A stretch of DNA of 64,000 bases from Nitrosospira briensis. Its GTDB lineage: Bacteria > Pseudomonadota > Gammaproteobacteria > Burkholderiales > Nitrosomonadaceae. The DNA is taken from contig NZ_FOVJ01000002.1 in the NCBI RefSeq assembly GCF_900115125.1, positions 62,001-126,000 on the forward strand. Reading direction: 5' to 3'. This document shows positions 3,471-31,806 of this stretch, piece after piece; position 1 is the first letter of the stretch; every line of letters begins with the position of its first letter. The notes under the pieces were generated by a model. That model had not been told where the DNA came from, did no database searches, and was given only the letters and a program-made list of their open reading frames with translations. Both the position numbers and the translations under genes were made by a program.

Positions 3471-3812
3471 CTAAGCTCCGGCTGGTTCTTTCAAGCTGAA
3501 GCTTTCACCGCAGCCGCAGGTGTTGTCGACGTTGGGATTCTCGAATTTGAAGGACTCGTTGAGCCCTTCCCTGACAAAATCGATGCGTGAGCCATTCACA
3601 TACGACAGACTGCCGGCATCAACCACCACATTGGCGTTATAAGACTCGAACATCTGATCGCCTGCGCGAACTTCGTCAGCGTAATCGAATGTGTACGCAA
3701 ACCCCGAGCAGCCTACCTTTTTAACGCCGATGCGCAGCGCCAGTCCCTTGCCGCGCTTCGCGAGCTGCTTCCGGATCTGTTTTGCTGCGTTTTCGGTTAA
3801 TGTTATTGCCAT
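3471..3812 (-). CDS. iscA: A-type Fe-S carrier protein (IscA/SufA family)
   Basis: A-type carriers receive clusters from the scaffold and pass them to apoproteins. With the ATG at 3812 the protein has 113 residues and the three cluster-binding cysteines fall at Cys35, Cys99 and Cys101, exactly the numbering of E. coli IscA. An upstream ATG at 3818 sits only two bases from the GGAG ribosome site, whereas the one at 3812 has a proper spacing. The sequence 'RGKGLALRIGVKKVGCSGFAY' style N-terminal half and 'FVREGLNESFKF' are closer to IscA than to SufA or ErpA by eye. It lies between iscR1 and sufB, giving a mixed ISC/SUF operon. Which subfamily name is right needs a tree; family membership is certain. 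Confidence 0.93.
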   Translation of the reverse strand: MAITLTENAAKQIRKQLAKRGKGLALRIGVKKVGCSGFAYTFDYADEVRAGDQMFESYNANVVVDAGSLSYVNGSRIDFVREGLNESFKFENPNVDNTCGCGESFSLKEPAGA

Positions 3813-3881
3813 TGCCATTCTCCAATCATCGTTCGCGATTATTCCTGCCCGGGATAGACGTGGAGCGTTTCGCGATTGGGG

Positions 3882-4400
3882 TCAAGCCGAAAACAAGGCG
3901 CGTTCACGTTCCGGGACAGCTTTTTCAGGCATGACCTTGCGCATGTCAAGCATCTGCACTACGCCATTCTCTCTTACCTTCTGCTCATCACTTCTTACCT
4001 TCTGTTCATCAACCAGCTGCTTCAACGTTACCGCGCCAAGATGGTCGAAAATAAGGTCGTTAAGTTTCACCCACAAATCATGCGTCATGCATTTCTTGTC
4101 GTTGTGGCAATTTTCCTTTCCGTTGCACTGGGTTGAATCGATTGGCTCATCAACAGCCAGGATAATCTCGGCAATAGACACGTGTGCCATGTCTTTAGCA
4201 AGACAGTAGCCTCCTCCCGGACCTCGAACGCTATCTACGAGCCCCCGTTGCCGCAACTTGGCGAACAATTGCTCAAGATAAGATAGCGAAATTTGCTGGC
4301 GCTGGCTAATTTCCGCGAGCGTCACCGGGCTGGTGCTGTGCTGCATGGCAAGATCCAACAGCGCCGTTACCGCAAACCGTCCTTTCGTCGTCAGCCTCAT
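3882..4400 (-). CDS. iscR: Rrf2-family Fe-S-sensing regulator IscR, copy 1 (suf operon)
   Basis: IscR binds a [2Fe-2S] cluster and represses Fe-S biogenesis promoters when cluster supply is sufficient. The 172-residue protein begins MRLTTKGRF, has the winged helix with 'SYLEQLF' (Glu43 included) and 'VRGPGGGY', and keeps all four cluster ligands at Cys92, Cys98, Cys104 and His107 in E. coli numbering. A strong GAGGAG site precedes the ATG at 4400. The C-terminal tail contains an in-frame duplication of seven codons (DEQKVRS, then DEQKVRE), visible as an 18-base near-perfect repeat at 3973-3990 and 3994-4011. It is the first gene of the operon leading to iscA-sufBCD. A second, shorter paralog lies at 30286-30756. 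Confidence 0.95.
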   Translation of the reverse strand: MRLTTKGRFAVTALLDLAMQHSTSPVTLAEISQRQQISLSYLEQLFAKLRQRGLVDSVRGPGGGYCLAKDMAHVSIAEIILAVDEPIDSTQCNGKENCHNDKKCMTHDLWVKLNDLIFDHLGAVTLKQLVDEQKVRSDEQKVRENGVVQMLDMRKVMPEKAVPERERALFSA

Positions 4401-4474
4401 GATAAACTCCTCTTAGCTTTCCATTCGATGAAATAGAGATATCGCTCATAAATTCATTAAGTCAATATCAGTCA

Positions 4475-4499
4475 ATACATGACTGATTTAGTCAACTAT
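4475..4499 (-). promoter_or_regulatory. IscR type-1-like operator A over the -10 region of the suf operon
   Basis: Read on the minus strand, this 25-base site has the left arm ATAGTTGACT, the centre AAATC, and the right arm AGTCATGTAT. It agrees with the E. coli type-1 IscR consensus as I remember it at 24 of 25 positions. It covers the -10 element at 4495-4500 and runs past the expected transcription start, a placement that fits repression. Binding is inferred from the match. Confidence 0.8.
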
Positions 4500-4523
4500 A
4501 AGATACCTGATTGATTTAGTCAA
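4495..4523 (-). promoter_or_regulatory. Sigma70 promoter of the iscR1-iscA-sufBCD operon
   Basis: On the minus strand the -35 TTGACT (4518-4523) and the -10 TATAGT (4495-4500) are separated by exactly 17 bases. Transcription should begin near 4488, giving a leader of about 88 bases before the iscR1 ATG at 4400. Both hexamers lie inside the two IscR-like operators, so repressor binding and polymerase binding would compete. Confidence 0.8.
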
Positions 4524-4527
4524 CTAT
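4503..4527 (-). promoter_or_regulatory. IscR type-1-like operator B over the -35 region of the suf operon
   Basis: Second 25-base site, 28 bases centre to centre from operator A. On the minus strand it reads ATAGTTGACT, AAATC, AATCAGGTAT, one mismatch from the type-1 consensus as remembered. It contains the -35 hexamer TTGACT. The two operators share a long identical left half, so this may have arisen by local duplication. A weaker third half-site resembling them (TATTGACTGATATTGACTTA) lies immediately downstream. Confidence 0.78.
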
Positions 4528-4751
4528 GACAGTTCATGTCACGTAAGACGGGGTACGGGACGCGGCTTGCTGCTCGCTCATGCGGCGCCCGTTCAGCAGC
4601 GGCATCCGGGCAGAACGTTCCAGGCGCGCGGAAAAACAAACGCCTCAACACGATTCTTAGACCGCCGCAGGTCCTCCAGTAGCCTGGAAGCCAGCAATGT
4701 GGACGGAAGGTGGGCGTAAAGCCTTAAACCAAGCGGAATGGGCTGTTACGA
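4528..4751. other. Intergenic DNA between the suf promoter and the tetR 3' end
   Basis: Together with the promoter region this makes a gap of about 350 bases between iscR1 and the regulator gene. Beyond the promoter and operators I see no open frame with a ribosome site, no clear terminator for the tetR transcript, and no repeat family. Both neighbours are on the minus strand, so the tetR transcript runs towards the suf promoter. Confidence 0.5.
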
Positions 4752-5372
4752 TCAAGCGCGGCGGCGCAAACTCATGTGGGCTTTTACCAATTCAATGGCC
4801 TGCCAGCGAAACTGGTCGCCGCGCGTATCTTTCACCCACATGTGCAACAGGCCGATAAAGAAGAGATGCGTATCCATTGCCAATTGGGTAGCGTCGTGAG
4901 AAGCATGCAATTGCTCTTGCAATTTGGCACGTTCATAGACCAGCTGCAGTTTTTCTGCAATACGGGAACAGTTGGATAGCACCTGTTGCAAGATCGTCGC
5001 GAATTCATCCACGTATTCGCACTTGATCATCATGATCTCGTAGACCTGCCGGGTTTCGATACTGTCGATCAACACCTGAATGGTGCCGCACAAGAAATTT
5101 TCTATACAGGTCAGCGCATCTTCCGAGCCTTCGATCAGCAGCGTATCATCCATGCGATCGATAAGCGGCAGGAATACCTGTTCACGCATCGCCTGAAACA
5201 AATCGATTTTATTGCTGAAGTGCCAATAGATCGCACCACGCGTAACACCGGCCTGGATGGCAATGTGTTCCATCGTTGTACGGCCCACCCCCCGCATGAG
5301 AAACACCTCGCGCGCCGCTTCAATAAGGCGTCGGCGGGTCCGTTCCGCATTTTCCTTTGTTTTTCGAACCGT
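4752..5372 (-). CDS. TetR/AcrR-family repressor of the efflux cluster, start codon not standard
   Basis: Local repressor of the divergent RND efflux genes. The recognition-helix region 'GVTRGAIYWHFSNK' and the conserved C-terminal TetR_C_AcrR-type region are clear. Family members begin MVRKTKE followed by a first helix. Here that segment is fully encoded in frame (VRKTKENAERTRRRLIEAAREV) but the codon where ATG is expected, 5370-5372, is ACG. No ATG, GTG or TTG is in frame between the upstream stop and this point. The first standard start in frame is GTG at 5306, which would remove half of helix 1 of the DNA-binding domain. An ATG at 5377 in another frame would need a -1 shift at the run of five A bases. 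The gene is therefore either started from a rare codon, damaged, or affected by a sequence error. Confidence 0.75.
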   Translation of the reverse strand, partial: TVRKTKENAERTRRRLIEAAREVFLMRGVGRTTMEHIAIQAGVTRGAIYWHFSNKIDLFQAMREQVFLPLIDRMDDTLLIEGSEDALTCIENFLCGTIQVLIDSIETRQVYEIMMIKCEYVDEFATILQQVLSNCSRIAEKLQLVYERAKLQEQLHASHDATQLAMDTHLFFIGLLHMWVKDTRGDQFRWQAIELVKAHMSLRRRA

Positions 5373-5414
5373 TCCATAAGTTTCGTAAATTTTAATTCTT
5401 TACGCTCTTTGATA

Positions 5415-5420
5415 TATAAT
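5415..5420 (+). promoter_or_regulatory. -10 element of the efflux operon promoter
   Basis: A perfect TATAAT stands directly before the palindromic operator at 5421-5444. The best -35 candidate at 17-base spacing, TTAATT at 5392-5397, is weak. The operator would then cover the transcription start, as expected for repression by a TetR-family protein. Confidence 0.55.
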
Positions 5421-5444
5421 TACATACATACACGAATGTATGCA
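5421..5444. promoter_or_regulatory. AcrR-type palindromic operator
   Basis: Inverted repeat TACATACAT (5421-5429) / GAATGTATG (5434-5442) in the intergenic space between tetR and the efflux genes. It agrees at 20 of 24 positions with the E. coli acrAB operator as I remember it (TACATACAT, centre, GAATGTATGTA). This supports an AcrR/TtgR-type regulator and also shows that the ATG at 5440, inside the palindrome, is not the start of the membrane fusion protein. Confidence 0.7.
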
Positions 5445-5481
5445 AGTTTTTCTCTTTTCACTTATCAGCATGGAGTTGACA

Positions 5482-6690
5482 ATGTCTGCTGCCGGACACT
5501 ATAAAAATAACTGTGGCGGCCTGTTGGCGCGTTTCTATTCCAGGACACTGCCCGCGCTGATTATAAGCTTTGCTGCAATTATTGCCTTGGGTGGCTGCGG
5601 CAAAAACGGTCAGACTGCGGATCAGCCTCAGCCTGCGATGGCGCTTCCCGTCAGCGTGATCGAAGTGCAACCCACCACCGTGCCCATCAGTGCCGAAGCC
5701 GTTGCCCAGACCGAGGGCGCCAAAGAGGTGGAAATACGCCCTCGTGTTGGCGGCATCCTGCTCTCGCGCCTGTACGAAGAGGGGAGCGAGGTGAAGGCTG
5801 GCCAACCGATGTTCCTGATTGATCCCGTGCCCTATCAAAATGCTCTCGCGCAAGCAAAAGCGCAACTGGCCGAACAGAAAGCCCGGGTGATACAGGCCAA
5901 ACGCGAAGAAAACCGCTTGCGCGATCTGCTGGAAACGCAGGCGGTCAGCCAGCGCGAGTACGATAACGCAGTCTCCGACCACGCAATCGCGAGCGCGGCC
6001 CTGCAGCAGGCAGAAGTGCGCGTAAAAGATGCCGAGCTCAACCTCTCCTATACCAAGGTAGTGGCGCCGGTAACGGGCATTTCCGGCCGCCGTCAGTTTT
6101 CCGAAGGAGCGCTGGTCGAGGCCAATAACAGTTTGCTGACGACGATCGTCCAGCTATCGCCCATATGGGTAAGCTTCAGCCTTTCCGACAACGAACTGGC
6201 GCGTATTGGTGGCCCCCTTACCGAAAACAGGGTACAACAAGTGACGCTGATTCTGTGGGACGGCACGGAGTACGAGAAAAAAGGCGAACTGAATTTTGCA
6301 GCCAGCCGGATCGACCCGGAATTGGGTACGCAGCAATTGCGCGCTACCTTCGACAACAGCGAGCGGCGCCTGCTGCCCGGGCAGTTCGTACGGGCGCGTG
6401 TCGTTACCGGCGAGCGCGACGGCGTTTTTCTCGTCCCGCAGGTTGCCGTACAGACTTCCGATCTGGGCAAGACGGTATATGTTGTCAATGACAAAAACGA
6501 AGCAACAATACGACCAGTCGTGGCGGGCAACTGGATAGGGAAAGACTGGGTCATTCTCGATGGACTCAAGGCGGGTGAGAGGGTTATTGTCGATAACATT
6601 ATCAAGCTCCGGCCGGGCGCGCTTGTGTCGCCGCATGCGCCTGAAGAAGCACCTGCCCTCTCCGCCCAGCCCACCGACAAGCAAACGTAA
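5482..6690 (+). CDS. RND efflux periplasmic adaptor (membrane fusion lipoprotein), pump 1
   Basis: AcrA/MexA-like adaptor joining the inner-membrane RND pump to the outer-membrane channel. The start is ATG at 5482, which has GGAG six bases upstream; two earlier ATGs (5440, 5470) lack a good site and one lies in the operator. With this start the protein has 402 residues with a signal segment and lipobox LGGC ending at Cys39. It then shows the barrel-sandwich/lipoyl part ('VEIRPRVGGILLSRLYEEGSEVKAGQPMFLIDP' region), a coiled-coil hairpin rich in A/Q/E around residues 105-165, and the beta-barrel and membrane-proximal domains ('LLPGQFVRARV'). The RND gene follows after 11 bases. Substrate cannot be read from the sequence. 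Confidence 0.93.
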   Translation: MSAAGHYKNNCGGLLARFYSRTLPALIISFAAIIALGGCGKNGQTADQPQPAMALPVSVIEVQPTTVPISAEAVAQTEGAKEVEIRPRVGGILLSRLYEEGSEVKAGQPMFLIDPVPYQNALAQAKAQLAEQKARVIQAKREENRLRDLLETQAVSQREYDNAVSDHAIASAALQQAEVRVKDAELNLSYTKVVAPVTGISGRRQFSEGALVEANNSLLTTIVQLSPIWVSFSLSDNELARIGGPLTENRVQQVTLILWDGTEYEKKGELNFAASRIDPELGTQQLRATFDNSERRLLPGQFVRARVVTGERDGVFLVPQVAVQTSDLGKTVYVVNDKNEATIRPVVAGNWIGKDWVILDGLKAGERVIVDNIIKLRPGALVSPHAPEEAPALSAQPTDKQT

Positions 6691-6701
6691 GCGGAGTCAC
6701 G

Positions 6702-9700
6702 ATGACCAGGTTCTTTATTACCCGCCCGATTTTTGCATCCGTCATATCCATCATCATCGTCCTGGCCGGACTGGCTGCGGCGATGCAATTGCCCATCGCC
6801 CAGTATCCACAGATTGCCCCGCCCACAGTCCTGATAACCGCTACATTTCCAGGCGCAAGCGCGGATACACTGGCAAAAACGGTTGCGGCGCCAATTGAAG
6901 AGCAGTTGAGCGGCGTCGATAATCTTCTTTACTTCAGCTCCAGCGCCGACTCCAGCGGCACGCTGACTATTACTGCAACCTTCGACGTCGGGACCGATAT
7001 CGACCAGGCAACGTTCAATACAAGTAACCGCGTGAATATCGCGTTGCCACGCCTGCCGGAAGAAGTCCGGCAGACGGGTCTGAGAATAGAAAAGCGATCC
7101 AACGACATCCTGATGGTCTTCATGCTCATATCCAGGGAGGAAGGAAAGTATGATCCTCTTTATCTGAGCAATTACGCCACGCTCAATGTTCTGGACGAGC
7201 TGAAACGCACTAAGGGCGTAGGTGATGCGATCGTTTTCGGCGGCCAGGATTATTCCATGCGCATCTGGTTGCGTCCAGACCGCATGGCACAGCTGGGTGT
7301 GGCCACAACAGATATTGCCGCCGCCATCCGCGCACAAAACGCGCAATATGCCGCCGGTAAAATAGGTCAGGAACCGGCGCCGCCCGACCAGCAACTGGTT
7401 TACACGGTCAATGCAAAGGGCCGGTTGCTGGAACCTGAGCAATTCGGAAATATCATATTGCGTGCCGACGGGCCCGAGGGCGTTCTCTATCTCAAGGATG
7501 TGGCGAGAATAGAGTTGGGCGCGTTAAGCTACGACGTGCGTACGACACTGAATGGCAAGCCCGGGGCGGGAATCCCCATCTTTTTGCAACCGGGTGCGAA
7601 TGCGCTCGATACCAAAAACGCACTTGTAGAAAAGATGGACGAGTTGAAGAAGCGCTTTCCGGAAGGCATGGATTATGTCGTACCTTACGATACCAGTCTA
7701 TTCGTCAAGGCTTCGATGTGGGAAGTGGTAAAAACGCTGGGCGAGGCAATGATCCTGGTGATACTGGTCGTATATATTTTTTTGCAAAGCTGGCGAGCGA
7801 CCCTGATCCCCATCATTGCGGTGCCCATCTCCCTGATCGGCACCTTTGCAGGCCTCTGGCTGTTTGGCTTCTCGATCAACACGCTGACGCTGTTTGCCAT
7901 GGTACTGTCCATCGGCATCGTGGTGGATGACGCGATTGTGGTGCTGGAGAATATCGAACGTTTGATGGACGAGGAAAAACTTTCGCCCCTGAATGCCGCT
8001 ATCCGCTCCATGGAGCAGGTTGCGAGGGCAGTCGTTGCTATTGTGCTGGTACTTTGCGCCGTATTTGTGCCCGTTGCATTCATGGGAGGAATCGCCGGAG
8101 AGCTATACCGTCAGTTCGCCGTCACAGTCGCAGTGGCTGTTACCATTTCCGGAATAGTGGCGCTGACCTTGACGCCCGCACTATGCGCTATCCTGCTAAA
8201 GCATACGCATGGCGAGTCCGCGTTCTTCCGTGCATTCAACCGCGGATTCAGTCATGTCACAAACTTCTACATTCGCATGGTGAGCACGACCTTGAGCCAT
8301 AAGGTAATCGGAACGTTTGTGTTCACTGGTATCATCGTGACCGCGGTGTATCTGCTCAAAATCGTCCCGGACAGCTTTGTGCCCCCTGAAGACCAGGGTT
8401 ATGTAGTGGCTGCGACGATTCTGCCGGATGGGGCGACACTGGCTCGAACGACGAAAACGTCGGAAGCCGTACGGGCTGCCATTGCCGAAGATCCCGCGGT
8501 ATCCCATCAATTCGTGGTCAACGGCTTCGACTTGATTGGCGGAGGAAATAAAACCAGCGCCGCCACGATGTTTGTGCCATTCAAGGATTGGTCCGAGCGC
8601 ACAGCCACGGCAGAGGATATCGTCAACAAACTGATGGGAATCGGGATGCAGCAGTCAGACGGCATTGCGATAGCGTTTAATCCGCCTGCGATTCGTGGTC
8701 TCGGCACGGCAGGAGGTTTTGAAGTCTACGTGCAGAGCCGAGGCAGTTCAGATCCCGTGCGCTTGGCCGGTGTTGTGAACAATCTCATCGATGCATTGAA
8801 CCAGGAGCCCCGGCTGGCTGGAATTGCTACCTTTTTCCGGCCTACAGTGCCACAATTTTTTATTGAAGTGGATGAAGCAAAGGCGATTTCACAGGGGGTG
8901 CGCGTTGCCGACGTTTACGCGACCCTGCAAAGTACGATGGGTTCGCTTTACGTCAATGACTTCAACAAGGCGGGACGAACCTACCGGGTGCAACTGCAGG
9001 CAGAACCACAATATCGCATGAATCCGGAGGACCTGGGCAAAGTTTATGTACGTTCCCAATCTGGCGCAATGGTACCTATGTCTGCATTGAGCAAAATCAG
9101 TACGGTAGTGGGCGCGGAGCAACTGGAACGCTACAACGGTCTGCTTTCCGCCAAGGTAATGGGGGGCGGTGCACCCGGAGTAAGCTCTGGTGATGCGATC
9201 GAACTGGTGGAACAGATTGCCGCGGAAACCCTGCCGGACAATTATCAGATCGCCTGGACAGCACAGGCCTTCCAGGAAAAAAGAACGGGTTCCGCTGCAA
9301 TCCTTGCTTTCAGCTTCGCCATCATCATGGTGTTTCTCATTCTGGCTGCGCAATTCGAAACCTGGGGACTGCCGCTAGCCGTGATCATGGCTGTGCCCTT
9401 TGCGCTCGTTGGCGCGCTGCTCGCCGTGCTTATCCGTGGCATGCCGAACGATATCTACTTTCAGGTGGGCTTGATCACCTTGATAGGGCTGGCGGCGAAA
9501 AATGCCATTTTAATCGTGGAATTTGCCAGCCAGAAGCTGAAAGAAGGCATGCCTGTGGCACAGGCCGCCCTCGAGGCTGCCCGACTGCGTTTCCGCCCTA
9601 TTGTAATGACCTCCATGGCTTTTGTTCTGGGTATCCTCCCCCTGGTGTTTGCGACTGGAGCGGGAGCTGCCGCTCGCCAATCCATGGGCACCGGCGTGCT

Positions 9701-9818
9701 GGGCGGAATGTTGCTTGCAACTTTTGTCGCCACCATCTTTATCCCGCTGTTTTTCACTTGGCTCAGCCGTGAGCGCACGGAAAAACCGGCCGGAACTTTG
9801 CAAGAGGGAACAACATGA
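6702..9818 (+). CDS. RND efflux pump, inner-membrane transporter 1 (HAE-1 / AcrB-like)
   Basis: Proton-driven trimeric multidrug exporter. The 1038-residue length is normal. It starts MTRFFITRPIFASV, has the first membrane helix at the N terminus, two large periplasmic loops, and two bundles of membrane helices. The proton-relay acidic pair is present in 'GIVVDDAIVVLENIER' (near residue 400) and the relay lysine in 'GLAAKNAILIVEFA' (near residue 930). The hydrophobe/amphiphile subfamily is indicated by this motif pattern rather than the metal-export CusA pattern. Its stop overlaps the start of the outer-membrane factor (ATGA, 9815-9818), so the three genes form one operon. Confidence 0.95.
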   Translation: MTRFFITRPIFASVISIIIVLAGLAAAMQLPIAQYPQIAPPTVLITATFPGASADTLAKTVAAPIEEQLSGVDNLLYFSSSADSSGTLTITATFDVGTDIDQATFNTSNRVNIALPRLPEEVRQTGLRIEKRSNDILMVFMLISREEGKYDPLYLSNYATLNVLDELKRTKGVGDAIVFGGQDYSMRIWLRPDRMAQLGVATTDIAAAIRAQNAQYAAGKIGQEPAPPDQQLVYTVNAKGRLLEPEQFGNIILRADGPEGVLYLKDVARIELGALSYDVRTTLNGKPGAGIPIFLQPGANALDTKNALVEKMDELKKRFPEGMDYVVPYDTSLFVKASMWEVVKTLGEAMILVILVVYIFLQSWRATLIPIIAVPISLIGTFAGLWLFGFSINTLTLFAMVLSIGIVVDDAIVVLENIERLMDEEKLSPLNAAIRSMEQVARAVVAIVLVLCAVFVPVAFMGGIAGELYRQFAVTVAVAVTISGIVALTLTPALCAILLKHTHGESAFFRAFNRGFSHVTNFYIRMVSTTLSHKVIGTFVFTGIIVTAVYLLKIVPDSFVPPEDQGYVVAATILPDGATLARTTKTSEAVRAAIAEDPAVSHQFVVNGFDLIGGGNKTSAATMFVPFKDWSERTATAEDIVNKLMGIGMQQSDGIAIAFNPPAIRGLGTAGGFEVYVQSRGSSDPVRLAGVVNNLIDALNQEPRLAGIATFFRPTVPQFFIEVDEAKAISQGVRVADVYATLQSTMGSLYVNDFNKAGRTYRVQLQAEPQYRMNPEDLGKVYVRSQSGAMVPMSALSKISTVVGAEQLERYNGLLSAKVMGGGAPGVSSGDAIELVEQIAAETLPDNYQIAWTAQAFQEKRTGSAAILAFSFAIIMVFLILAAQFETWGLPLAVIMAVPFALVGALLAVLIRGMPNDIYFQVGLITLIGLAAKNAILIVEFASQKLKEGMPVAQAALEAARLRFRPIVMTSMAFVLGILPLVFATGAGAAARQSMGTGVLGGMLLATFVATIFIPLFFTWLSRERTEKPAGTLQEGTT

Positions 9819-11233
9819 AGGCCGCGCCATTAAATAAGAAAGCGCGCAGCTCGCGGATATGGCTGCCATTGCTTTTTTCCAGCCTGTTTCTGGCATCCTG
9901 TGCAATGGGTCCCGACTATTCCCGTCCGCCTGTCGACACATCCGAAAGATTTCGCATGGCGGAAGTGGAAGGACAGTCCATTGCCAATCTTCCCTGGTGG
10001 GAACTCCTCCAGGACGAAGAACTTCAACGGCTTATCAAGCAGGCATTGCTTGAAAACAAGGATCTCAAGCAAGCGGTGGCAAGTGTTGAAGAGCTTGAGG
10101 CACGCGCCGCCACGGCGCGCTTCGACTTCCTTCCCAAACTGGATGCGAATGTCAACGCACCGGCGTTTGGTACGCTAGGCGGGTTCCTTATCCGCGGATT
10201 TCCTACGCCTTACAGTTATTTTGGTCAGGGCACTCTGAACTGGGAACTGGACATATGGGGCAGGATTCGCCGCTCCAATGAGGCCGCCCGCGCTGATCTG
10301 ATGGCCCGCGAGGAAAATCGCAGGGCAGTAGTGCTCACACTGGTGAGTTCGGTAGCGCAGTCTTATTTCGATCTTTTGCAATTCGACATGCAGTTGAATA
10401 TCGCTAGATATGCCCTGTCATCTTGGGAAGAATCAGTGGCCATCGCACGCGCGCAACTACGGGGCGGGTTGATTTCCCGTCTCGATCTGGATCAATTCGA
10501 TGCGGAACGGGCCAATGCGGCAACGAGAGTCCAGGAACTCGAACGGCAGATGGTCCAGAAGGAAAATGAGCTGAGCGTGCTACTCGGGAAGAACCCGGTG
10601 CCGATCGCGCGAGGCCATGCGCTGACCGAGCAGCTAATGCCGCCCGTGGTGCCGGCGGGCCTTCCTTCCGAACTGCTGCAACGGCGCCCCGACATTCTGC
10701 AGGCTGAACAAACACTCGCTGCGGCGACGGCCAGAATCGGGATGACCAAGGCGGCGCGCTTTCCCAGGCTAACGATCACGGGTTTTCTGGGTGTGGCCAG
10801 CCCTGCACTGTCAAAACTGCTGCTCTCCGGCAGTGAGTTCGGGGTGGGCGGGCTTGGTCTGGCGGGTCCATTGCTGAACGCACAGAGCCTGGGATTCGAC
10901 CAGCGGGCGGTAGAGGCTCAGGCAAGGCAGGTATTGGCGCAATACGAGCAAACTATCCTGGTTGCGTTCAAGGAGGTTGAGGACGCTCTCGTGGCTGTTC
11001 GTACCTTTGATGCGCAACGCAAGGCGCAAGAGGAGCAGGTCGAGGCCTTGCGCTCGGCATTACATGTGGCCGACCTGCGCTACAAGGGAGGCATTACGAG
11101 CTACGTGGACGTGCTTCTTGCCAAGCGCACTCTGTTCGATGCCGAATTCGCGCTTACTGCGACCCGCCGGCTGCATCTTGTGTCAGTCGTACAGCTTTAT
11201 AAAGCGCTGGGCGGGGGATGGACGCCGGTATAA
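9815..11233 (+). CDS. Outer-membrane efflux lipoprotein (NodT/OprM family)
   Basis: TolC-like channel of the tripartite pump. The 472-residue protein has a signal peptide and lipobox LASC with the lipidated Cys at 29, then 'MGPDYSRPPV', the usual start of mature NodT/OprM proteins. Two OEP domains follow, with helical repeats and 'LPSELLQRRPDILQAEQ' between them. The start overlaps the RND stop by four bases. It is the only outer-membrane factor in the cluster, although two adaptor-pump pairs are present, so both pumps may use it. Confidence 0.94.
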   Translation: MKAAPLNKKARSSRIWLPLLFSSLFLASCAMGPDYSRPPVDTSERFRMAEVEGQSIANLPWWELLQDEELQRLIKQALLENKDLKQAVASVEELEARAATARFDFLPKLDANVNAPAFGTLGGFLIRGFPTPYSYFGQGTLNWELDIWGRIRRSNEAARADLMAREENRRAVVLTLVSSVAQSYFDLLQFDMQLNIARYALSSWEESVAIARAQLRGGLISRLDLDQFDAERANAATRVQELERQMVQKENELSVLLGKNPVPIARGHALTEQLMPPVVPAGLPSELLQRRPDILQAEQTLAAATARIGMTKAARFPRLTITGFLGVASPALSKLLLSGSEFGVGGLGLAGPLLNAQSLGFDQRAVEAQARQVLAQYEQTILVAFKEVEDALVAVRTFDAQRKAQEEQVEALRSALHVADLRYKGGITSYVDVLLAKRTLFDAEFALTATRRLHLVSVVQLYKALGGGWTPV

Positions 11234-11329
11234 TCAATACCCGGAATCGTCTGATCATCCCTGAACACCAGGTGGGATAATCTTCATACCCGATACTCCC
11301 TTCCCGCAGGATAACCGAGAGCCGAGGAT

Positions 11330-12571
11330 ATGAATCCGTCAGTCAAGCGGTCAATAAGGTCAGCCATTCGAAATGGCACAGGCATGGCCCATACAGGCGC
11401 TGGCCTGTTCGTGATTCTGCTTGCCGCTTGCGCCGAAAAGGCGCCCCCTCCGCCTCCGCCCGCCCCTCAAGTGGAAGTCGTTACGGTAACCGCTAAAACG
11501 GTACCGGATGAGCCGGAGTTTATCGGACAAACGGAGGCGTTTCGCCCTGTGGAAATTCGCCCGCAGGTGACCGGGATCATCAAGGAAGTTTTTTTTACGG
11601 AAGGTCGAAACGTCAAAAAAAACGACCGACTGTACCTCATCGATCCTGTGCCATTCAAAGCCGTCTATCTCAGTGGCAAGGCCAGAGTTGCCCAGGCTCA
11701 GGCGAGGCTTGTCCAGGCGGAACAGGAACTGGCACGCGTAAAACCTCTTCTCGAGGAACAGGCCGTAAGCCAGAAAAATGTTGATGACGCCGTGGCCGAA
11801 ATGATGGGAGCGAAAGCTACGCTCGAAGCTGCGCAAAGCGAACTGGTCAAGGCAAAATTTGATCTGGACAATACGCTGATCACCGCGCCCGTGAATGGCC
11901 GGATCGGCCGCAGCCATTTTTACGAGGGGCGCCTCGTCTCGGCCCAGACAACCCTTTTGACCACCATCGATCAACTCGATCCGATGTATGTAAACGTGAA
12001 TGTTCCCGAAAGCTACCTCCTCCGGCGGCGGCGGGAACTCGCCGAGCATAGGGTGCAGAGGCCGGATATTTTTCAACTGCATGGGGTGATGACCTTCTCG
12101 GATGGGACTGTATATCCAGAGGAAGGAATACTGGATTTTGCCGATGTCACCTTGCGGTCCGAGACGGGCATGTTACAGGCGCGGTTTACATTTCCCAATC
12201 CGGAAGGGGGTTTTTCTCCCGGGAAATCCTATTTTTACCCTGGACAGTTCGTAAAGGTTCGTCTCAAAGGCTACATCCGGACTGCCGCCATCCTCATCCC
12301 TCAACGGGCTGTTCAACAGGGACCCAAGGGATCATTTGTCTATGTGGTCGACAAGGAGGACAAAGCGGAACTCCGTCCGATTCGGGCCAGCACGTGGCAT
12401 GAGAAGGAGTGGCTGATCGAAGATGGCCTTCATCCGGGAGAGCGGATAGTCGTGGAAGGTTTTCACCGGATTCAACCAGGCGTTCAAGTCAATGCTGTTC
12501 CATTTCAGAATGAGGAGACTGCTTCCCCGGATAGTCCCGCGGCGGAAAAAATGACGCGGAAGGCGCCATGA
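11330..12571 (+). CDS. RND efflux periplasmic adaptor (membrane fusion lipoprotein), pump 2
   Basis: Second AcrA-like adaptor. The 413-residue protein has a lipobox LAAC with Cys34, followed by a run of prolines (residues 38-45) that may act as a spacer. The barrel-sandwich ('VEIRPQVTGIIKEVFF'), coiled-coil hairpin and beta-barrel ('FYPGQFVKVRL') are present. It starts 96 bases after the outer-membrane factor; no terminator is visible in the gap, so read-through from the first pump is plausible. An in-frame ATG at codon 19 is an alternative start. It overlaps the next RND gene by four bases. Confidence 0.93.
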   Translation: MNPSVKRSIRSAIRNGTGMAHTGAGLFVILLAACAEKAPPPPPPAPQVEVVTVTAKTVPDEPEFIGQTEAFRPVEIRPQVTGIIKEVFFTEGRNVKKNDRLYLIDPVPFKAVYLSGKARVAQAQARLVQAEQELARVKPLLEEQAVSQKNVDDAVAEMMGAKATLEAAQSELVKAKFDLDNTLITAPVNGRIGRSHFYEGRLVSAQTTLLTTIDQLDPMYVNVNVPESYLLRRRRELAEHRVQRPDIFQLHGVMTFSDGTVYPEEGILDFADVTLRSETGMLQARFTFPNPEGGFSPGKSYFYPGQFVKVRLKGYIRTAAILIPQRAVQQGPKGSFVYVVDKEDKAELRPIRASTWHEKEWLIEDGLHPGERIVVEGFHRIQPGVQVNAVPFQNEETASPDSPAAEKMTRKAP

Positions 12572-18837: not shown

Positions 18838-18848
18838 TCCGGCGCTTT

Positions 18849-22234: not shown

Positions 22235-22262
22235 TTCCACTTTCTATTTCGGGTGCTCCAGA

Positions 22263-24478: not shown

Positions 24479-26023
24479 CTATAGTTGCCGCATATACGCT
24501 ACCAGATCCGACTTCTCCTCGTCCGTGAGCTTGAGTTGCAACACAAGATTGAAGAATTCAACGGTGTCTTCCAGAGTCAGCAAGCGGCCATCGTGCAGAT
24601 AGGGAGGGCTGTCCTTGATGCCACGCAATGTGAAAGTCTTGATTGGCCCATCCCCGGGTTCGTTGAGAAAACGTTCGAGCTTCAGGTCGTGCATCTGATG
24701 ATCGAGGAAAGCAGGCGGCTGATGACAGCTCGCACACTGGCCCTTCCCGAAAAACACCTTCTCGCCACGGAGCTCCTTCGCGCTTGCCTTAGCCGTGTCG
24801 AGCCTGCCCTGCGTATCCAGTTTGGGTGCGGGAGGAAAATCCAGCATGTTCTGAAGCTGCGCCATATGGCTTACGTGAATCCGATCAATAACCGGGAACC
24901 CCTTTTTCATGGCGTGAATCGGATCACCATTAAAATAAGCGGTACGAAACTCGAACTCGGTGAAATCCTCCACAGAGCGCAAGCTGCGTTTGGAGCCGTG
25001 GATTTGCTGATTGAAAAGCCCGCGCAGGCTTACTGTGTCCAGTCGAAAACGCCTTTCCTGAGGTCTGATATCCGGGCTGAGATGAAATTGCGCGGTAGTA
25101 TGTCCGTTCACATGACAGTCAAAGCAAGTCACGCCCAAGCTGGGCTGGGTGCTTTTGCGGTCATCGGTCGGGTTGAACTCTTCCTGAGGAAGGGGACTGA
25201 GTAACATCTGGAGGCCGTTAAGCTGTACGGGTGTCAGAATATCTTTGAAGAGGCGATAGAAGTTGTTGATCGATACTACCTCTCCGCGAGAAACGTCCCC
25301 CAGTTCAGGCCGGTTCTGAAGGAAAATTGCTGGAGGAAATTCCGGTAGAAATGCGTCCGGCAAATCAAATTCCACGTCAAATCGTTCCAGCCGAGGAAAC
25401 ATATCTATTTGAACCTGAGGAAAGACCTGTCCCCCGGTGGACTGCTTCGGATGAGGCAAGGCTGGATACGGAAATATGTTTTTGCTCCGTATTTCGGATG
25501 GGGACATACTGGCCAGTTTTTGCCAGCTTGCCCCTGCCGGCAAGCGGGCGGTAGGTCCTACCGCCAAGGGCTTGCCACGGGACATCTTCGCTTCGCGATC
25601 CAGCCGCGGGGTCAAGTCATAGCGTCTCATGAGCAACTCGCGCTGAGTTCTGGTGACCCTGGGGCGATCGGCCACGTCCGCTTTCATGGTCTCCTCGAAA
25701 GTCTGCATCGGCTTTTTAGCATTCAGCGGATCACGATAAAAATCAAAGCCCGGTATCTTTCCCTTGTCGGGCTGATTTTCGAAAACAGGGGAAGAAGGCA
25801 TGGCATTTGGGGCGGCAAAAACACCGGAACGGTCATGCTCGTTCTTTTGCTGCTCCGGTCGAGTCACAGGAGTCTCCCGAGTCGTCTGAGCATCAAGAAC
25901 AGCGTCGCCTGATTGGCCTCTTGCCGGACGCATATCGTTGCCGGTTTGGCCAAGTGCGCTCGCCATTCCCGTGCTTAAGCCAACCACTCCCATCGCCAGT
26001 ACCAGGAAGTTTACTTTTTTCAT
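24479..26023 (-). CDS. Di-haem cytochrome c, peroxidase/MauG-like family
   Basis: Exported protein of 514 residues with a signal peptide (MKKVNFLVLAMGVVGLSTGMASA). It has two CXXCH haem sites, CFDCH (near residue 300) and CASCH (near residue 433), arranged in the order seen in di-haem peroxidase relatives. A long, low-complexity N-terminal region of about 180 residues precedes the catalytic part and is unusual. The C-terminal segment 'TFTLRGIKDSPPYLHDGRLLTLEDTVEFFN' is typical of the cytochrome c peroxidase/MauG superfamily. GGAG precedes the ATG. It lies downstream of a Crp/Fnr-type regulator on the same strand, separated by about 290 bases with no other gene. The exact substrate is unknown. 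Confidence 0.85.
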   Translation of the reverse strand: MKKVNFLVLAMGVVGLSTGMASALGQTGNDMRPARGQSGDAVLDAQTTRETPVTRPEQQKNEHDRSGVFAAPNAMPSSPVFENQPDKGKIPGFDFYRDPLNAKKPMQTFEETMKADVADRPRVTRTQRELLMRRYDLTPRLDREAKMSRGKPLAVGPTARLPAGASWQKLASMSPSEIRSKNIFPYPALPHPKQSTGGQVFPQVQIDMFPRLERFDVEFDLPDAFLPEFPPAIFLQNRPELGDVSRGEVVSINNFYRLFKDILTPVQLNGLQMLLSPLPQEEFNPTDDRKSTQPSLGVTCFDCHVNGHTTAQFHLSPDIRPQERRFRLDTVSLRGLFNQQIHGSKRSLRSVEDFTEFEFRTAYFNGDPIHAMKKGFPVIDRIHVSHMAQLQNMLDFPPAPKLDTQGRLDTAKASAKELRGEKVFFGKGQCASCHQPPAFLDHQMHDLKLERFLNEPGDGPIKTFTLRGIKDSPPYLHDGRLLTLEDTVEFFNLVLQLKLTDEEKSDLVAYMRQL

Positions 26024-26316
26024 GTCAGGTCTCCATTTTTTTAACCCCGGAATAAGGGCAGGCCTTTACCCCCGATCCCCGCTTCTTCTCGGATGTCCCA
26101 CAAAACCAGCCAGCCATCTCGGCCATTCTGGACAAAAAGAAACCGCTACCAGCAATTCTTTCATTAATTGGGGAATCAGTCTGTTCGAAAGCGCACAGTA
26201 GGACGTTAATCTTCCGCTCCGGGCCTTATTCCGGGGAAACGGACTTCTTCGCTCCACTTTGCGCGCAACCGGGCCCTCGCCAATCCAGTCGCTTTCACGT
26301 TCGTCGCGCTCACGAC

Positions 26317-27096: not shown

Positions 27097-27108
27097 GTCG
27101 ACTCTCAA

Positions 27109-27470
27109 TCGGTTTGTAGCTTGAAAAAAGATGTACTCGAAGCATCAATGGCACCGAGCGCAAGGCAAACTCATATACTTGCCGCCGCTCTTGTTCAGAC
27201 CCCGGACAGGATGCCTTGGGCGGGCTCAAGCTTTCCTTGCACTCCTGCTCAAGGATGAAGAATGCTAGTCCATAAGGAGGTCTTGCTCTGTGCGGCGGCC
27301 CACATAGGGCAAAACCCCCGCAACGGCGCAGGTCAATGAAGAGGGGGTAGACGGCGTGGGAACAAGCCGTCCACGAGGATTTCAGCAGGAACCGAGACTG
27401 GAACGCAGCCTGGCTAGCAGGAAGAGGTATATTACCGGAGCATAAGATCGTGATCTGGGCGAATGCGGAC
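27109..27470. other. Gap of about 360 bases without a recognised gene
   Basis: The stretch between the DUF4870-type gene and the Crp/Fnr gene has only short frames without ribosome sites. I see no terminator with a T-run, tRNA fold or repeat. It should contain the promoter of the regulator gene, but I could not assign hexamers with confidence. Confidence 0.4.
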
Positions 27471-27878
27471 TCAGACAGGCATAGGGTTATGCTCGTTGAG
27501 CGCCATCCAGCCGCGCATGATTCGATAGATCACCCAAATGCCCGTACCTACAGCAAGGATATACGCGAATATAATACCGATGACGGTCGCGAAGAGCATT
27601 GCTGCAATCACCAGCCAAAGCAGCGTGTACCAGAATGTGCGTATTTGCCAGCTGAAATGGGAGTCGAGATACGTGCCCCGCACATCGTTCCGTTTCACGT
27701 AGTTGATGATCACGGCGATGATCGAAGGCCAACCAGTGAGAAATGTTGTAATGATGAGCGCCGGCCCCAGGACCCCCATCAGGATACTGAAACCATGCAA
27801 TAAATAGATAATATGAGTAAGGCGGACGAGGCCTGCCGGAGGAACGGTGAGCACAACCCGTGAGTCGAATTCGCTCAT
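27471..27878 (-). CDS. Small integral membrane protein, DUF4870/Tic20-like
   Basis: 135 residues with three or four predicted membrane helices ('IIYLLHGFSILMGVLGPALIITTFL', 'LLWLVIAAMLFATVIGIIFAYILAVG'). The charge pattern 'YVKRNDVRGTYLDSHFSWQIRTFWYTLLW' between helices is the conserved centre of the DUF4870 family. The function of the family is not established. It is 128 bases downstream of mlaA on the same strand. Family call is by memory of the pattern. Confidence 0.75.
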   Translation of the reverse strand: MSEFDSRVVLTVPPAGLVRLTHIIYLLHGFSILMGVLGPALIITTFLTGWPSIIAVIINYVKRNDVRGTYLDSHFSWQIRTFWYTLLWLVIAAMLFATVIGIIFAYILAVGTGIWVIYRIMRGWMALNEHNPMPV

Positions 27879-28006
27879 GTTATTTATATTCCCATCCGGA
27901 TGATAAGAGACGCGAAAGCCCCAGTCTGGGAAGCCGGGGTATCCGCGGTACCGAACGCAACCCGTTTCAGGTAGCTACTGATGGAAACTTCACCGAACGA
28001 ATACCA

Positions 28007-28801
28007 TCAATTCGTGGACTTAGTCGGAGACTCGTTCTCGATGGGTTCATCCTCTATGAGTTGATCGTAAACTTCCGGTGGCGGATCTCCGTCATAGATC
28101 ACGTGCTTGCGCTGCTGGAGGTAGGCATCGCGGACAAACAGGTATGGCTCCAGCGCAGCCTGGTCGCGAATGCGCATAGGACCTGATAACCTCGCTCGTT
28201 TGTCAACGGCGCCAAGAGCACTAAGAGGCACGGTGACAGGTGCGCCAATCACAAAAATGCCGGTCCAGAAAAGGACGTTGGTGACGGCAGTGACAGGTAT
28301 GCCAGATATATCGCGGTTACTGCTGGGTCCGAGCAGCGGTACAAACAGATAGGTCTTGGCATCAACCCCCCAAACGCCCAGCGTTTGCCCGAAATCCTCG
28401 TCGTGCTGCGGTAAACCCATGGGTGAAGCCATATCGAAGAGTCCCGCTCCTCCTATGGTCGAGTTGATGACAAAACGAAGGCTGTCCCGAAACCCCTGAC
28501 GTACCTTACCTTGCAGAAAATCATTCAGAATGACGTTCGGATACTGGAGATTGTCAAAGAAATGCCCGATGGAACGCTGCATGCGGCCCGGTATATAGTC
28601 GATATAGGCATCAGCAATCGGCTCCATGATTTTCCGGTCAACCACATCGGTAAATACATAAAACTTCCGGTTAATGTTTTCGTAGGGATCGATGGGATCG
28701 AACGATTCCGTGCTCTTGTCTTGCGAACGGGTGGTGGCGCAAGCGGGGAGAAGCGCTACGCAGATCAATAACAGCAACGCTGTAGAATAATTATGTCTCA
28801 C
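28007..28801 (-). CDS. mlaA: Outer-membrane lipoprotein MlaA (VacJ), phospholipid retrograde transport
   Basis: MlaA removes misplaced phospholipids from the outer leaflet and passes them to MlaC. The 264-residue protein has a lipobox LPAC with Cys21, then 'DPIDPYENINRKFYVFTDVVDRKIMEP', the family hallmark, and 'RFVINSTIGGAGLFDMA' in the middle. A TTGACA hexamer lies about 100 bases upstream on the minus strand without a clear partner. The other mla genes are not in the window. An acidic tail follows residue 240. Confidence 0.93.
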   Translation of the reverse strand: MRHNYSTALLLLICVALLPACATTRSQDKSTESFDPIDPYENINRKFYVFTDVVDRKIMEPIADAYIDYIPGRMQRSIGHFFDNLQYPNVILNDFLQGKVRQGFRDSLRFVINSTIGGAGLFDMASPMGLPQHDEDFGQTLGVWGVDAKTYLFVPLLGPSSNRDISGIPVTAVTNVLFWTGIFVIGAPVTVPLSALGAVDKRARLSGPMRIRDQAALEPYLFVRDAYLQQRKHVIYDGDPPPEVYDQLIEDEPIENESPTKSTN

Positions 28802-29051
28802 GATCGAGGTAATAAGCGAAATGACACGGTTAATTAGTGTTTACGAGAATCGGGGTGACACCGATTCCCTCCGGATAAAATCAGAAGTATAACCATAATT
28901 GTCAAGGTAACGAATAAGATTATTCAACATTCGGCAACCATGGTATTTCAGGATTTGACCCTTATCCAGTACTGGCAGCACATCCTTCCCTGATAACGAT
29001 TGCGCTATGGCGTTTTATCATCCGCCGGCGGATGCATAATTGATCCAGCGC

Positions 29052-30209
29052 TCAGATCAGGACCGTGTTCATTCGCGTCAATTCCTCCGCAATCCGGCTC
29101 AAGGCACCAAGAAAATTCTCAACCTGTAACGGCGAGTTCTCGTCACCCAGGCTTACCCGAACGGCGCAGCGCGTCAGCGCTGCGTCTACTCCCATCGCTT
29201 CCAGTACGTGGCTTCGCCCAGGGTTCACACTGGAGCATGCGGCGCCGCTGGCAACCGCGAAGCCTGCCTTGTCGAGACGAACCACGAGCGTGTCTCCCTC
29301 AATGCCGGGCAAAGCGAAGTAGCAGGTATTGGGCAATCGGGAGGCGCCCAAGCCGAAAATGACCGCGCCCATCCCCATCAACCCTTGCTCCAACTGAGCA
29401 CGCATGGCGGAAATGCGAGCAGTCCTTTCCGCTATCCGTATTTTGACCAGGCCACAAGCCACCCCCAGCCCCACGATGGCGGGAACGTTTTCCGTGCCGG
29501 AGCGTAATCCGTTCTCATGCCCGCCCCCGTAAATAAGCGGCTTGAGCAATAGCCGCTTATCCATAATGAGCGCGGCTGCGCCCTTGGGACCATGAACCTT
29601 GTGGCCCGACAACGTCAACGCATGTACATTGAGGGACGCAAAATCCACTGGAATTTTGCCGAATGCCTGCACCGCATCAGTATGCACCCACGCGCCGTAT
29701 GCCCGGGCTTTCGCTGCTATCCCGGCCACATCCTGAATGACGCCGGTCTCATTATTGGCGAGCATTACCGATACCAAGCCCGAGTGGTGTTCCAACATCG
29801 CTTCGTCTACGTCGGCGACGTCGACGCGCCCCAATTTATCGACCGCCAATTGCCGCAAATTCCAGCTCCCACGCGAATTCCTCGTCAATGCCTGAGCAGC
29901 CCGCATCACGCAGGGATGCTCAACCGAGCTTACGACTATTTGCGTCGGCTTCAGATAGCCTGCTGCGCCCTGGATAAACAGATTATTGGCTTCCGACCCT
30001 CCACTGGTAAAAATTACTTGCCCCGGTTGCACTCCGACCGAGGCGGCCACCTGCTCACGGGCCTGGTTCACCGCACGCCGGGCAGCCAGGCCCGGGCCGT
30101 GGCGGCTGGAAGGATTGCCATAATCTTTTTGAAAATACGGCAACATGGCGTCCAGCACCGCATTGTCAACCGCGGTGGTGGCGTTGTGGTCGAAATAAGC
30201 GTAAGACAC
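29052..30209 (-). CDS. iscS: Cysteine desulfurase IscS/NifS (group I)
   Basis: PLP enzyme that takes sulfur from cysteine for Fe-S and thio-cofactor synthesis. The PLP lysine lies in 'LSGHKVHGPKG' and the persulfide cysteine in 'ASGAACSSVNPGRSHVL', the group I loop. The start is GTG at 30209, which has GGGAGG six bases upstream and gives a normal N terminus (MSYAYFDHNATT), 385 residues. The ATG at 30263 would add 18 odd residues without a site at proper distance. It follows iscR2 as in the classic isc operon, but the next gene is mlaA in place of iscU. The C terminus lacks the tail of E. coli IscS that docks IscU, as far as can be judged. Confidence 0.93.
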   Translation of the reverse strand: MSYAYFDHNATTAVDNAVLDAMLPYFQKDYGNPSSRHGPGLAARRAVNQAREQVAASVGVQPGQVIFTSGGSEANNLFIQGAAGYLKPTQIVVSSVEHPCVMRAAQALTRNSRGSWNLRQLAVDKLGRVDVADVDEAMLEHHSGLVSVMLANNETGVIQDVAGIAAKARAYGAWVHTDAVQAFGKIPVDFASLNVHALTLSGHKVHGPKGAAALIMDKRLLLKPLIYGGGHENGLRSGTENVPAIVGLGVACGLVKIRIAERTARISAMRAQLEQGLMGMGAVIFGLGASRLPNTCYFALPGIEGDTLVVRLDKAGFAVASGAACSSVNPGRSHVLEAMGVDAALTRCAVRVSLGDENSPLQVENFLGALSRIAEELTRMNTVLI

Positions 30210-30285
30210 AATTCCCTCCCGGCTGACGCCACTACCCGGCGCCTTGGGTTTGAATGCACTCATTCGGTTCGATGGCGCTCCGCAC

Positions 30286-30756
30286 TCAAGCCAGAATGCT
30301 TTCCCGCGACGGCTTGCACGCCCTCATATCCTGCAATACGGAAATATCTTTGACTTTCGGGTTCGATACCAGTTGCTCCAGCGTAACCAGCGCCAGATAA
30401 TCCCGTATCTTGACATTAAGATTGGCCCACAAGTTATGGGTCATGCACCGCTGATCATTGTAGCAATTCTCCTTGCCCCCGCATTGTGTGGCATCAATTG
30501 GCTCATCCACGGCGAAAATGATATCGACCACCGACACTTCGCTCATTGGTTTTGTCAGATGGTAACCGCCACCCGGACCGCGCACGCTGCCGACCAATTT
30601 ATTACGCCGTAATTTTCCGAACAATTGTTCGAGATAGGATAGTGAAATTTTCTGCCGTTCACTGATTCCGGCCAGCGTAACCGGCCCTTCTCCGCTATGC
30701 AATGCAAGATCAATCATCGCGGTAACCGCGAAACGTCCCTTAGTCGTTAATCGCAT
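30286..30756 (-). CDS. iscR: Rrf2-family Fe-S-sensing regulator IscR, copy 2 (isc locus)
   Basis: IscR paralog of 156 residues starting at ATG 30756 (TTGGAG upstream; a TTG at 30768 is not needed). It aligns without gaps to copy 1 through the DNA-binding part and keeps Cys92, Cys98, Cys104 and His107, so it should hold a [2Fe-2S] cluster. It lacks the 7-codon duplication of copy 1. Position between trmJ and iscS is the ancestral place for iscR, so this is probably the original copy. Its own promoter carries one IscR-like operator. Confidence 0.95.
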   Translation of the reverse strand: MRLTTKGRFAVTAMIDLALHSGEGPVTLAGISERQKISLSYLEQLFGKLRRNKLVGSVRGPGGGYHLTKPMSEVSVVDIIFAVDEPIDATQCGGKENCYNDQRCMTHNLWANLNVKIRDYLALVTLEQLVSNPKVKDISVLQDMRACKPSRESILA

Positions 30757-30906
30757 TTTTTGCTCCAATAAAATTCATAACCAGGATTAATGTCTGCTAA
30801 ATTGCCGGTGCAAGGAACTTTCAATAGGCCCTCCTGGCATCCCATCCCCTAAAACCGGCATGCTTCTTTTCCGCCAAAACCGGTGGACTTATCCAGAGGC
30901 TTGTTA

Positions 30907-30931
30907 ATACCCGACAACGTTGGTCAAGTAT
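30907..30931 (-). promoter_or_regulatory. IscR type-1-like operator of the iscR2-iscS operon
   Basis: On the minus strand the left arm ATACTTGACC and the right arm GTCGGGTAT flank a central AACGTT. It agrees with the remembered type-1 consensus at 21 of 25 positions. It overlaps the -10 hexamer at 30927-30932, a repressing position, and is weaker than the two sites at the suf promoter. Confidence 0.62.
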
Positions 30932-30955
30932 ATGAAGCCCCCTTACCGAGGTCAA
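30927..30955 (-). promoter_or_regulatory. Sigma70 promoter of iscR2-iscS
   Basis: On the minus strand TTGACC (-35, 30950-30955) and TATACT (-10, 30927-30932) are 17 bases apart. The expected start, near 30920, gives a leader of about 165 bases before the ATG at 30756. trmJ, on the same strand upstream, ends at 31027. Confidence 0.75.
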
Positions 30956-31026
30956 CTATTTTGTTCAGGTCTTGGGGTGCCAATCGCCCTGGATTGACTA
31001 TTGTCAGTGCTTCCCTGGTTTATTCG

Positions 31027-31806
31027 CTATTTGTCAGGCATGGCCGGATCGTCTGTAGAAATGACGCCGCGCGTATTCATCCGTTTTTCACAAGCGCCGA
31101 GAATCCCGCGTAATATATTTACTTCTTCCTTTTCCAGGCGAGCACGTGCAAACAGCCGCCGAATCCGCTGCATCAGCCGTTTCGGCTCCTGCGGATCAAG
31201 GAAGCCGCTACTGATCGCCACACGTTCGAGATGATGGAAGAGTAATTCGATTTCCTCGAAACGTGCCGCCACGCTGGTCATGCCGATCGCTGATGAAAAA
31301 GACCCGGGTTCCGCCGCCATGCGTAATTCATAGGCCAGCAATTGCACAGCGCTGGCAAGATTCAAAGAGGAATACTCCGGATTTGCGGGAATATGCACGA
31401 CCATCTGGCACTTGCTCACTTCCAACGTAGTGAGCCCGGACATTTCCGTGCCGAAAACCAGCGCAACCGGGTTTTGCCGCGCATAGCCGAGCAACTCAAT
31501 TGCTCCCCGTCGCGCATCAAAAACCTGATGCGAAAGATCGCGTGGGCGGGCAGTGATAGCGGCTGCCAGAATCGTACCGCTCAACGCCTCGCCAAGGTCT
31601 GCGCAAACCATGGCCCCGGTCAGGATGTCCCAAGCCCCGGCAGCACGCCTCTCCGCTTCCTTGTCGGGAAAAGATTTGGGATTCACGAGGCAAAGTGATT
31701 TCAGCCCCATCGTTTTCATAGCCCGCGCCGCGGCGCCTATATTACCGGGGTGGCTGGTGTGGCTTAGCACCACGCGGACATTATCAAGCGGATGGGCAGG
31801 ATTCAT
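31027..31806 (-). CDS. trmJ: tRNA (cytidine/uridine-2'-O-)-methyltransferase TrmJ
   Basis: SpoU-class enzyme that methylates position 32 of tRNA. Start ATG at 31806 gives 259 residues beginning [31 protein letters not shown], the family N terminus; the open frame continues 75 codons upstream but overlaps suhB and is not coding. The AdoMet knot motifs '[12 protein letters not shown]' and '[18 protein letters not shown]' are present. It is divergent from suhB and upstream of iscR2, the same order as in enteric bacteria. Confidence 0.94.

Follow-up and report, generated by a model that had tools for sequence, protein, structure and literature searches.

How does the ammonia oxidizer Nitrosospira briensis assemble its iron-sulfur (Fe-S) clusters, and what does a cysteine desulfurase do there that stands apart from any cluster scaffold? 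The question is raised by a 64,000-nucleotide stretch of its genome (contig NZ_FOVJ01000002.1, positions 62,001 to 126,000; G000:C11:62001-126000 in the comparison set), here called the window, which carries two loci, each led by its own gene for the regulator IscR. At 1-4.4 kb, iscR1 precedes genes of the sulfur mobilization (SUF) system; at 29-32 kb, iscR2 precedes a desulfurase gene in a setting like that of the iron-sulfur cluster (ISC) operon. A sequence-only reading had taken the two loci as complementary halves of one system, with the desulfurase at one and the carrier and scaffold at the other. Gene content, gene absences, clades, a missing protein tail and operator-like sites point instead to Fe-S assembly by SUF only, together with an orphan iscR-desulfurase operon that probably serves thiolation, both under predicted control by IscR. 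The probability of this reading is put at roughly 0.7.

The genome (3.23 Mb, 99.7% complete) was compared with 100 relatives, which gives a set of 101 genomes: 61 from its own family (f1, taken to be Nitrosomonadaceae) and 40 from other families of the same order. Within the family, the group g3 is taken to be Nitrosomonas.

The SUF operon

Because the suf genes are encoded on the minus strand, their operon extends to the left of window base 1. Its first gene, iscR1 (3882-4400), is followed by an A-type carrier gene of the IscA/SufA kind in the sufA position (3471-3818), by sufB (1933-3381; NF008773, 902 bits against a cut-off of 717), by sufC (1148-1936; TIGR01978, 355 bits, cut-off 212.8) and by sufD (TIGR01981, 292.8 bits, cut-off 222), which is truncated by the window edge (1-1151) and whole at L002:9826-11151. 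Past that edge, sufD is followed consecutively by sufS (L002:8564-9823; TIGR01979, 582 bits, cut-off 475), sufU (L002:8082-8564; TIGR01994, 150 bits, cut-off 92.5), nfu (L002:7509-8069; recognized by its Nfu domains) and hemJ (L002:6892-7398; HemJ, 145 bits, cut-off 138), and then by aroB and others, read by eye. One operon thus holds the SufB, SufC and SufD scaffold plus SufS with SufU, each above its cut-off. Since sufS and sufU belong to it, SUF has its own desulfurase and sulfur relay, and since they stand directly behind sufD, the locus at 29-32 kb is not the missing desulfurase of SUF. The order iscR, IscA-like carrier, sufB, sufC and start of sufD had been read correctly from the window, but the remark that no sufS or sufE was in sight holds only inside it. 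A sufS/sufE-type pair is present in its SufU form, which removes the complementarity; SufE itself is absent from this genome and above cut-off in only one of the 101.

In the genus, 22 of 23 genomes encode SufU downstream of iscR1, at a distance of 5.8-6.0 kb. The carrier scores above cut-off for the TIGR00049 subfamily and below cut-off both as IscA (TIGR02011, 139.8 bits) and as SufA (TIGR01997, 111.7 bits); the only other A-type carrier of the genome, which has two in total, is ErpA (189 bits, cut-off 117). Going by the roles of these families, SufS would take sulfur from cysteine, SufU would relay it to the SufBCD scaffold, and SufA and Nfu would carry the finished clusters, so that iscR1-sufA-sufB-sufC-sufD-sufS-sufU-nfu would be a self-sufficient operon for making Fe-S clusters.

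Absence of the ISC scaffold and chaperones

A genome-wide search found a single protein with the NifU_N domain (PF01592), which is SufU and scores weakly as IscU (47.5 bits against a cut-off of 192.4). The genome has no IscU and no HscB, and nothing above the cut-off for HscA. The one strong HscA match is DnaK, as its flanking GrpE-like and DnaJ-like frames indicate. The absence of iscU, hscB and hscA, which the sequence-only reading had left to a search of the full genome, is thus borne out.

The same pattern extends through the family. Of the 101 genomes, 27 have an HscB match (26 of them above cut-off); every one of these belongs to another family of the order, and none of the 61 family genomes has such a match. 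The NifU_N scores form two bands. The IscU range (171-185 bits) is represented in none of the 61, and in the rest of the order in exactly the 27 of 40 genomes with an HscB match; a single SufU-range protein is found in 57 of the 61, and none in the other four (G018, G029, G044 and G047). Among the 13 genomes of the order without HscB, 11 have NifU_N proteins of the SufU range only and two (G077 and G096) have none. The replacement of ISC scaffold assembly by SUF is therefore supported for the genome and for the family, as had been proposed from the window; the further proposal, that the ISC desulfurase was kept along with its regulator, does not stand, because the retained enzyme is NifS-like.

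One of these genomes, G077 (1.8 Mb, 97% complete), has no match for HscB, NifU_N, IscR, SufE or the window's desulfurase used as query, and its Fe-S assembly is unaccounted for.

The desulfurase of the second locus

The second locus, also on the minus strand, has the order trmJ (31027-31806), iscR2 (30286-30756), desulfurase gene (29052-30263) and mlaA (28007-28801; PF04333, 215.9 bits). The 250 bases between the desulfurase gene and mlaA hold no isc gene, so that the isc genes noted as missing are indeed not there. TrmJ (TIGR00050, 206 bits, cut-off 167) belongs by synteny to the ancestral isc-locus context, and a suhB-like inositol monophosphatase gene diverges from it on the plus strand (31792-32655; NF008027, 304.7 bits, below the cut-off of 332, and placed by synteny). 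The same trmJ-iscR-desulfurase-mlaA order is found in Nitrosospira multiformis Nl18, the best named match for the IscR (89%).

The gene order read from the window at 28.0-32.7 kb is therefore right; the name iscS is not. The desulfurase fails the IscS model (268 bits, cut-off 643.2), and it does better against the NifS model (376.5 bits) without reaching that cut-off either (530.75), for which reason it is named only NifS-like. In a quick tree of 146 desulfurases with frames of at least 300 residues, in which 20 of 41 iscR-iscS loci and 10 of 35 iscR-NifS-like loci are represented, it falls in a NifS-like group that a branch with a value of 97* splits from IscS. It also lacks the conserved C-terminal tail of IscS, which docks IscU. 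This tail is present in all 38 IscS proteins from the order and in 26 of the 28 rows that carry the IscS label outside it (64 of 66 together), and in none of 80 NifS-like rows. Model scores, tree position and missing tail together rule out IscS; judged from its sequence, the retained desulfurase is a NifS-like paralogue. A search of solved structures with its sequence returned only other cysteine desulfurases and their kin. Of the genome's nine Aminotran_5 matches, SufS and this enzyme score highest and the third looks like SerC; no true IscS is among these three, the six weaker ones being unread.

Since the enzyme has no IscU-docking tail, it most likely supplies other sulfur acceptors. TusA, of which the genome encodes one, and tRNA thiolation would come first, and the enzyme would then do a job otherwise done by IscS.

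IscR proteins and their putative operators

The two IscR proteins are 60% identical, and both barely clear the IscR model (TIGR02010, cut-off 207.55), with 208.1 bits for IscR1 and 210.0 bits for IscR2. Both retain Glu43, Cys92, Cys98, Cys104 and His107, as had been read; the three Cys residues and the His are the cluster ligands of IscR.

The search for operators used the 25-bp type-1 consensus of E. coli IscR. Three sites at five or fewer mismatches were found in the window, all on the minus strand: two with one mismatch each ahead of iscR1 and the suf genes (4475-4499 and 4503-4527) and one with three mismatches ahead of iscR2 (30907-30931). In six Markov-shuffled versions of the window the counts were 0, 0, 0, 0, 0 and 1. 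At three or fewer mismatches the whole genome has only these three places, all in the two iscR promoters. The 123 iscR promoters of at least 250 bases have a site at up to two, three and four mismatches in 38, 81 and 110 cases, where ten shuffles gave 0, 0 and 0-1. Within the family, all eight iscR1 promoters that were read (the window and seven loci) have a site at two or fewer mismatches, and 30 of 31 iscR2 promoters, two of which come from one genome, have one at four or fewer (25 of 31 at three or fewer). These sites suggest that both loci are probably tied together by IscR in one small predicted regulon, in which holo-IscR would repress both operons via its type-1 operators. The earlier suggestion of a duplicated regulator linking the two loci thus keeps its link, and its duplication is not established.

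The locus in relatives

The arrangements around iscR were sampled at 130 loci, 80 of them the best matches of a longer list, and 125 iscR rows could be classed. There are 41 loci with iscR-iscS, 24 with iscR-NifS-like-iscS, 11 with iscR-NifS-like-suf, 35 with iscR-NifS-like, 12 with iscR-suf and 3 others. The classes of 12 and 11 overlap at L157, which the script took as SUF-only even though a NifS-like gene adjoins its iscR; the 11 loci are therefore a count by eye, and the script gives 10. One of the 11 relatives with a single iscR-NifS-like-suf cluster, L019, ends at a contig end. The 35 iscR-NifS-like rows show nothing further in view, and many are short and nearly identical, hence not independent.

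Within the family the NifS-like gene is nearly always kept. It is near full length in 58 of 61 genomes, a fragment in two (G037 and G041) and unmatched in one (G044, 74% complete); an in-frame stop is flagged in seven of the 58 matches, whose open frames are still at least 385 residues long. Hand reading of the matches listed, among which weak ones are under-represented, places an intact IscR beside it in every one of the 23 genomes of the genus and in 8 of the 9 of group g2, with none among the 21 of g3 or the 8 of g4; some g3 and g4 genomes have a second weak IscR match that was counted but whose position is not listed. No intact iscR stands beside the NifS-like gene in the six loci that were read, three from g3 and three from g4. 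Since the gene persists in 58 of 61 genomes while g3 and g4 have lost iscR2, the enzyme has been kept without IscR2. In one g4 locus, L168, a broken iscR2 remnant (G028:C22:18004-18381) stands between trmJ and the NifS-like gene; none is left in L169 and L170.

Here the two loci are on one strand, 26 kb apart, and not in the single-operon arrangement of iscR, desulfurase and suf genes. In 19 of the 23 genomes of the genus both iscR genes are listed and share contig and strand, at a distance of 20.6-49.4 kb; three more genomes have them on separate contigs, and in the last (G018) IscR1 is not listed.

Two further observations concern the same genes. Outside the family, the NifS-like and IscS frames adjoin in 27 of 28 loci (L177-L204), which are the best matches from a 249-genome sample and give no estimate of frequency. 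In a betaproteobacterial metagenome bin (L027:2800-13023), trmJ-iscR-iscS-iscU-iscA and iscR-sufABC are neighbors in divergent orientation, an arrangement that may be intermediate between ISC and SUF.

Weighing the SUF-only reading

Several observations weigh against SUF-only assembly with an IscR-controlled thiolation enzyme. The operator consensus is that of E. coli, and a reversed-pattern control found one chance site genome-wide. None of the six NifS-like loci that have lost iscR2 has an IscR site within 600 bases upstream, so IscR control is not essential to the role of the enzyme. No thiolation gene is linked to the NifS-like gene at the window locus, MnmA and ThiI not having been searched genome-wide, and three Nitrosomonas-like loci read by eye have no neighbor of that gene suggesting thiolation. 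Fdx and IscX are absent beside the desulfurase gene, the genome-wide searches not covering these two. The NifS-like gene (E < 1e-100) occurs in only 7 of the 27 genomes of the order with HscB and 6 of the 13 without, so that it is dispensed with in many genomes. Of the 13, G070, G075, G088 and G098 have only weak matches, at 1e-13 to 1e-17, taken as SufS, and G077 has none; a second desulfurase is therefore not always needed.

History of the two loci and rival explanations

The genes trmJ-iscR2-nifS-like may be left over either from an ancestral isc locus or from one undivided iscR-NifS-like-suf cluster. As far as the trees can tell, both histories are viable for the locus at 29-32 kb. The IscR tree was built from 98 rows, of which 96 come from the 125 that were classed and two from the window; it omits L161, L096, L049, L069 and L040 and retains every fourth of 32 near-identical iscR-NifS-like rows. 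All 23 SUF-linked IscRs fall in one clade of 26 rows (95/91), with IscR1 of the window inside and IscR2 outside; the remaining members are two ISC-linked rows and one unclassed row, Gallionellaceae judging by the tree drawing. Approximately unbiased (AU) tests discriminate poorly between the histories; SUF-linked IscRs alone as one clade gave p 0.544.

The first history, in which the native isc operon has dwindled to the 29-32 kb locus and the SUF operon came by transfer with its own IscR, is given close to an even chance. It is favored by the position of IscR2 outside the clade that holds all SUF-associated IscRs and by the possible intermediate L027. The AU test, however, does not reject SUF-linked IscRs and IscR2 as one clade (p 0.48), and the NifS-like protein is nearer to that of the iscR-NifS-like-suf loci, its constraint with ISC-linked loci giving p 0.053 (rows L163, L020 and L161 omitted from the tests of this protein).

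In the second history, a reasonable contender held to be somewhat less than even, a single trmJ-iscR-nifS-like-sufABCDSU cluster was split with an iscR on each piece. The unsplit cluster exists in 11 relatives, the family SUF proteins group together (100/100) within a set of lineages that in part have suf behind iscR-NifS-like (100/100 and 98/96, midpoint root), and both pieces here lie on one strand, 26 kb apart. This history requires an iscR duplication, and a clade of family IscR1 and IscR2 costs 16.9 log units, which the AU test does not reject (p 0.137). On the same value, a recent duplication giving rise to IscR1 and IscR2 is not established. The constraint of the family NifS-like proteins with those clusters, at p 0.154, does not help it.

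A different proposal, that the NifS-like enzyme sometimes also feeds SufU or SufB and the iscR2 operon backs up SUF, would fit the shared predicted IscR control and the persistence in the family of both the near full-length NifS-like gene and SufU. It is judged unlikely, since the NifS-like gene also stands beside true iscS in 24 loci, which makes a SUF-specific partner unlikely. The complementary halves of the original proposal, in which the 29-30 kb desulfurase would feed a SUF scaffold with none of its own, are rejected as highly improbable: operator-like sites at both operons and the position of the loci on one strand in 19 of the 23 genomes of the genus would suit them, but sufS and sufU lie just outside the window in the suf operon itself, and the Nitrosomonas-like and g4 loci that were read have lost iscR2 and the operator at the NifS-like gene while suf is kept.

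Relation to known systems

The use of SUF in Nitrosomonadales is already in the literature (PMC10631705, citing an earlier study). In the parts of that paper seen, a residual iscR-desulfurase locus and shared operators are not mentioned. In the Alphaproteobacterial isc-suf operon of Caulobacter and Rhodobacter, as far as the portions consulted describe it (PMC11475020), a run of suf genes, sufS among them, is preceded by iscR and an IscS-like desulfurase gene, and IscR controls the operon. The iscR-NifS-like-sufABCDSU clusters of the 11 relatives resemble it. It differs from the present case in being one operon with one IscR, whereas here there are two loci with an IscR each, SufU and a NifS-like desulfurase. 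Mycobacterium tuberculosis also has a full SUF operon and one extra desulfurase, for which tRNA thiolation was raised as a possible role (PMC10848736). That desulfurase is called IscS and forms an operon with trmU; the passages available name no IscR-desulfurase operon or second IscR. Among the titles and abstract beginnings listed by searches of open-licence PMC papers, none describes the residual locus, a NifS-like/IscS tandem or these loci in ammonia oxidizers; the terms looked for do not occur in PMC2682760, and the parts seen of PMC11559095 and PMC8593673 have nothing bearing on them. A complete SUF operon with an orphan desulfurase operon, probably IscR-controlled, is thus a modest variant of known arrangements.

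The result does away with a false lead, the idea of one system divided between complementary halves. It also shows that in Betaproteobacteria a gene taken for 'iscS' because it follows iscR can encode another enzyme, so that annotation and models of how ISC and SUF are distributed would be misled. The series of ISC, ISC with NifS-like, NifS-like with SUF, orphan NifS-like and lost iscR2 amounts to a natural experiment on a desulfurase without a scaffold. More tentatively, and with doubt outweighing confidence, the tailless NifS-like desulfurase may be a second desulfurase that is conserved, and has been overlooked, in the iscR-led operons of Pseudomonadota, kept through the exchange of ISC for SUF because it serves thiolation and not clusters, with a private two-operon IscR regulon tying its output to SUF in this genus.

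Other genes in the window

Two features of the window lie apart from these loci. A 514-residue protein (24479-26023) has two CxxCH heme motifs by eye and no Pfam match at E 0.001. At 5440-12571 two efflux-pump adaptor genes stand close to each other, and the genes that separate them are, by eye, those of a resistance-nodulation-division (RND) pump and an outer-membrane factor.

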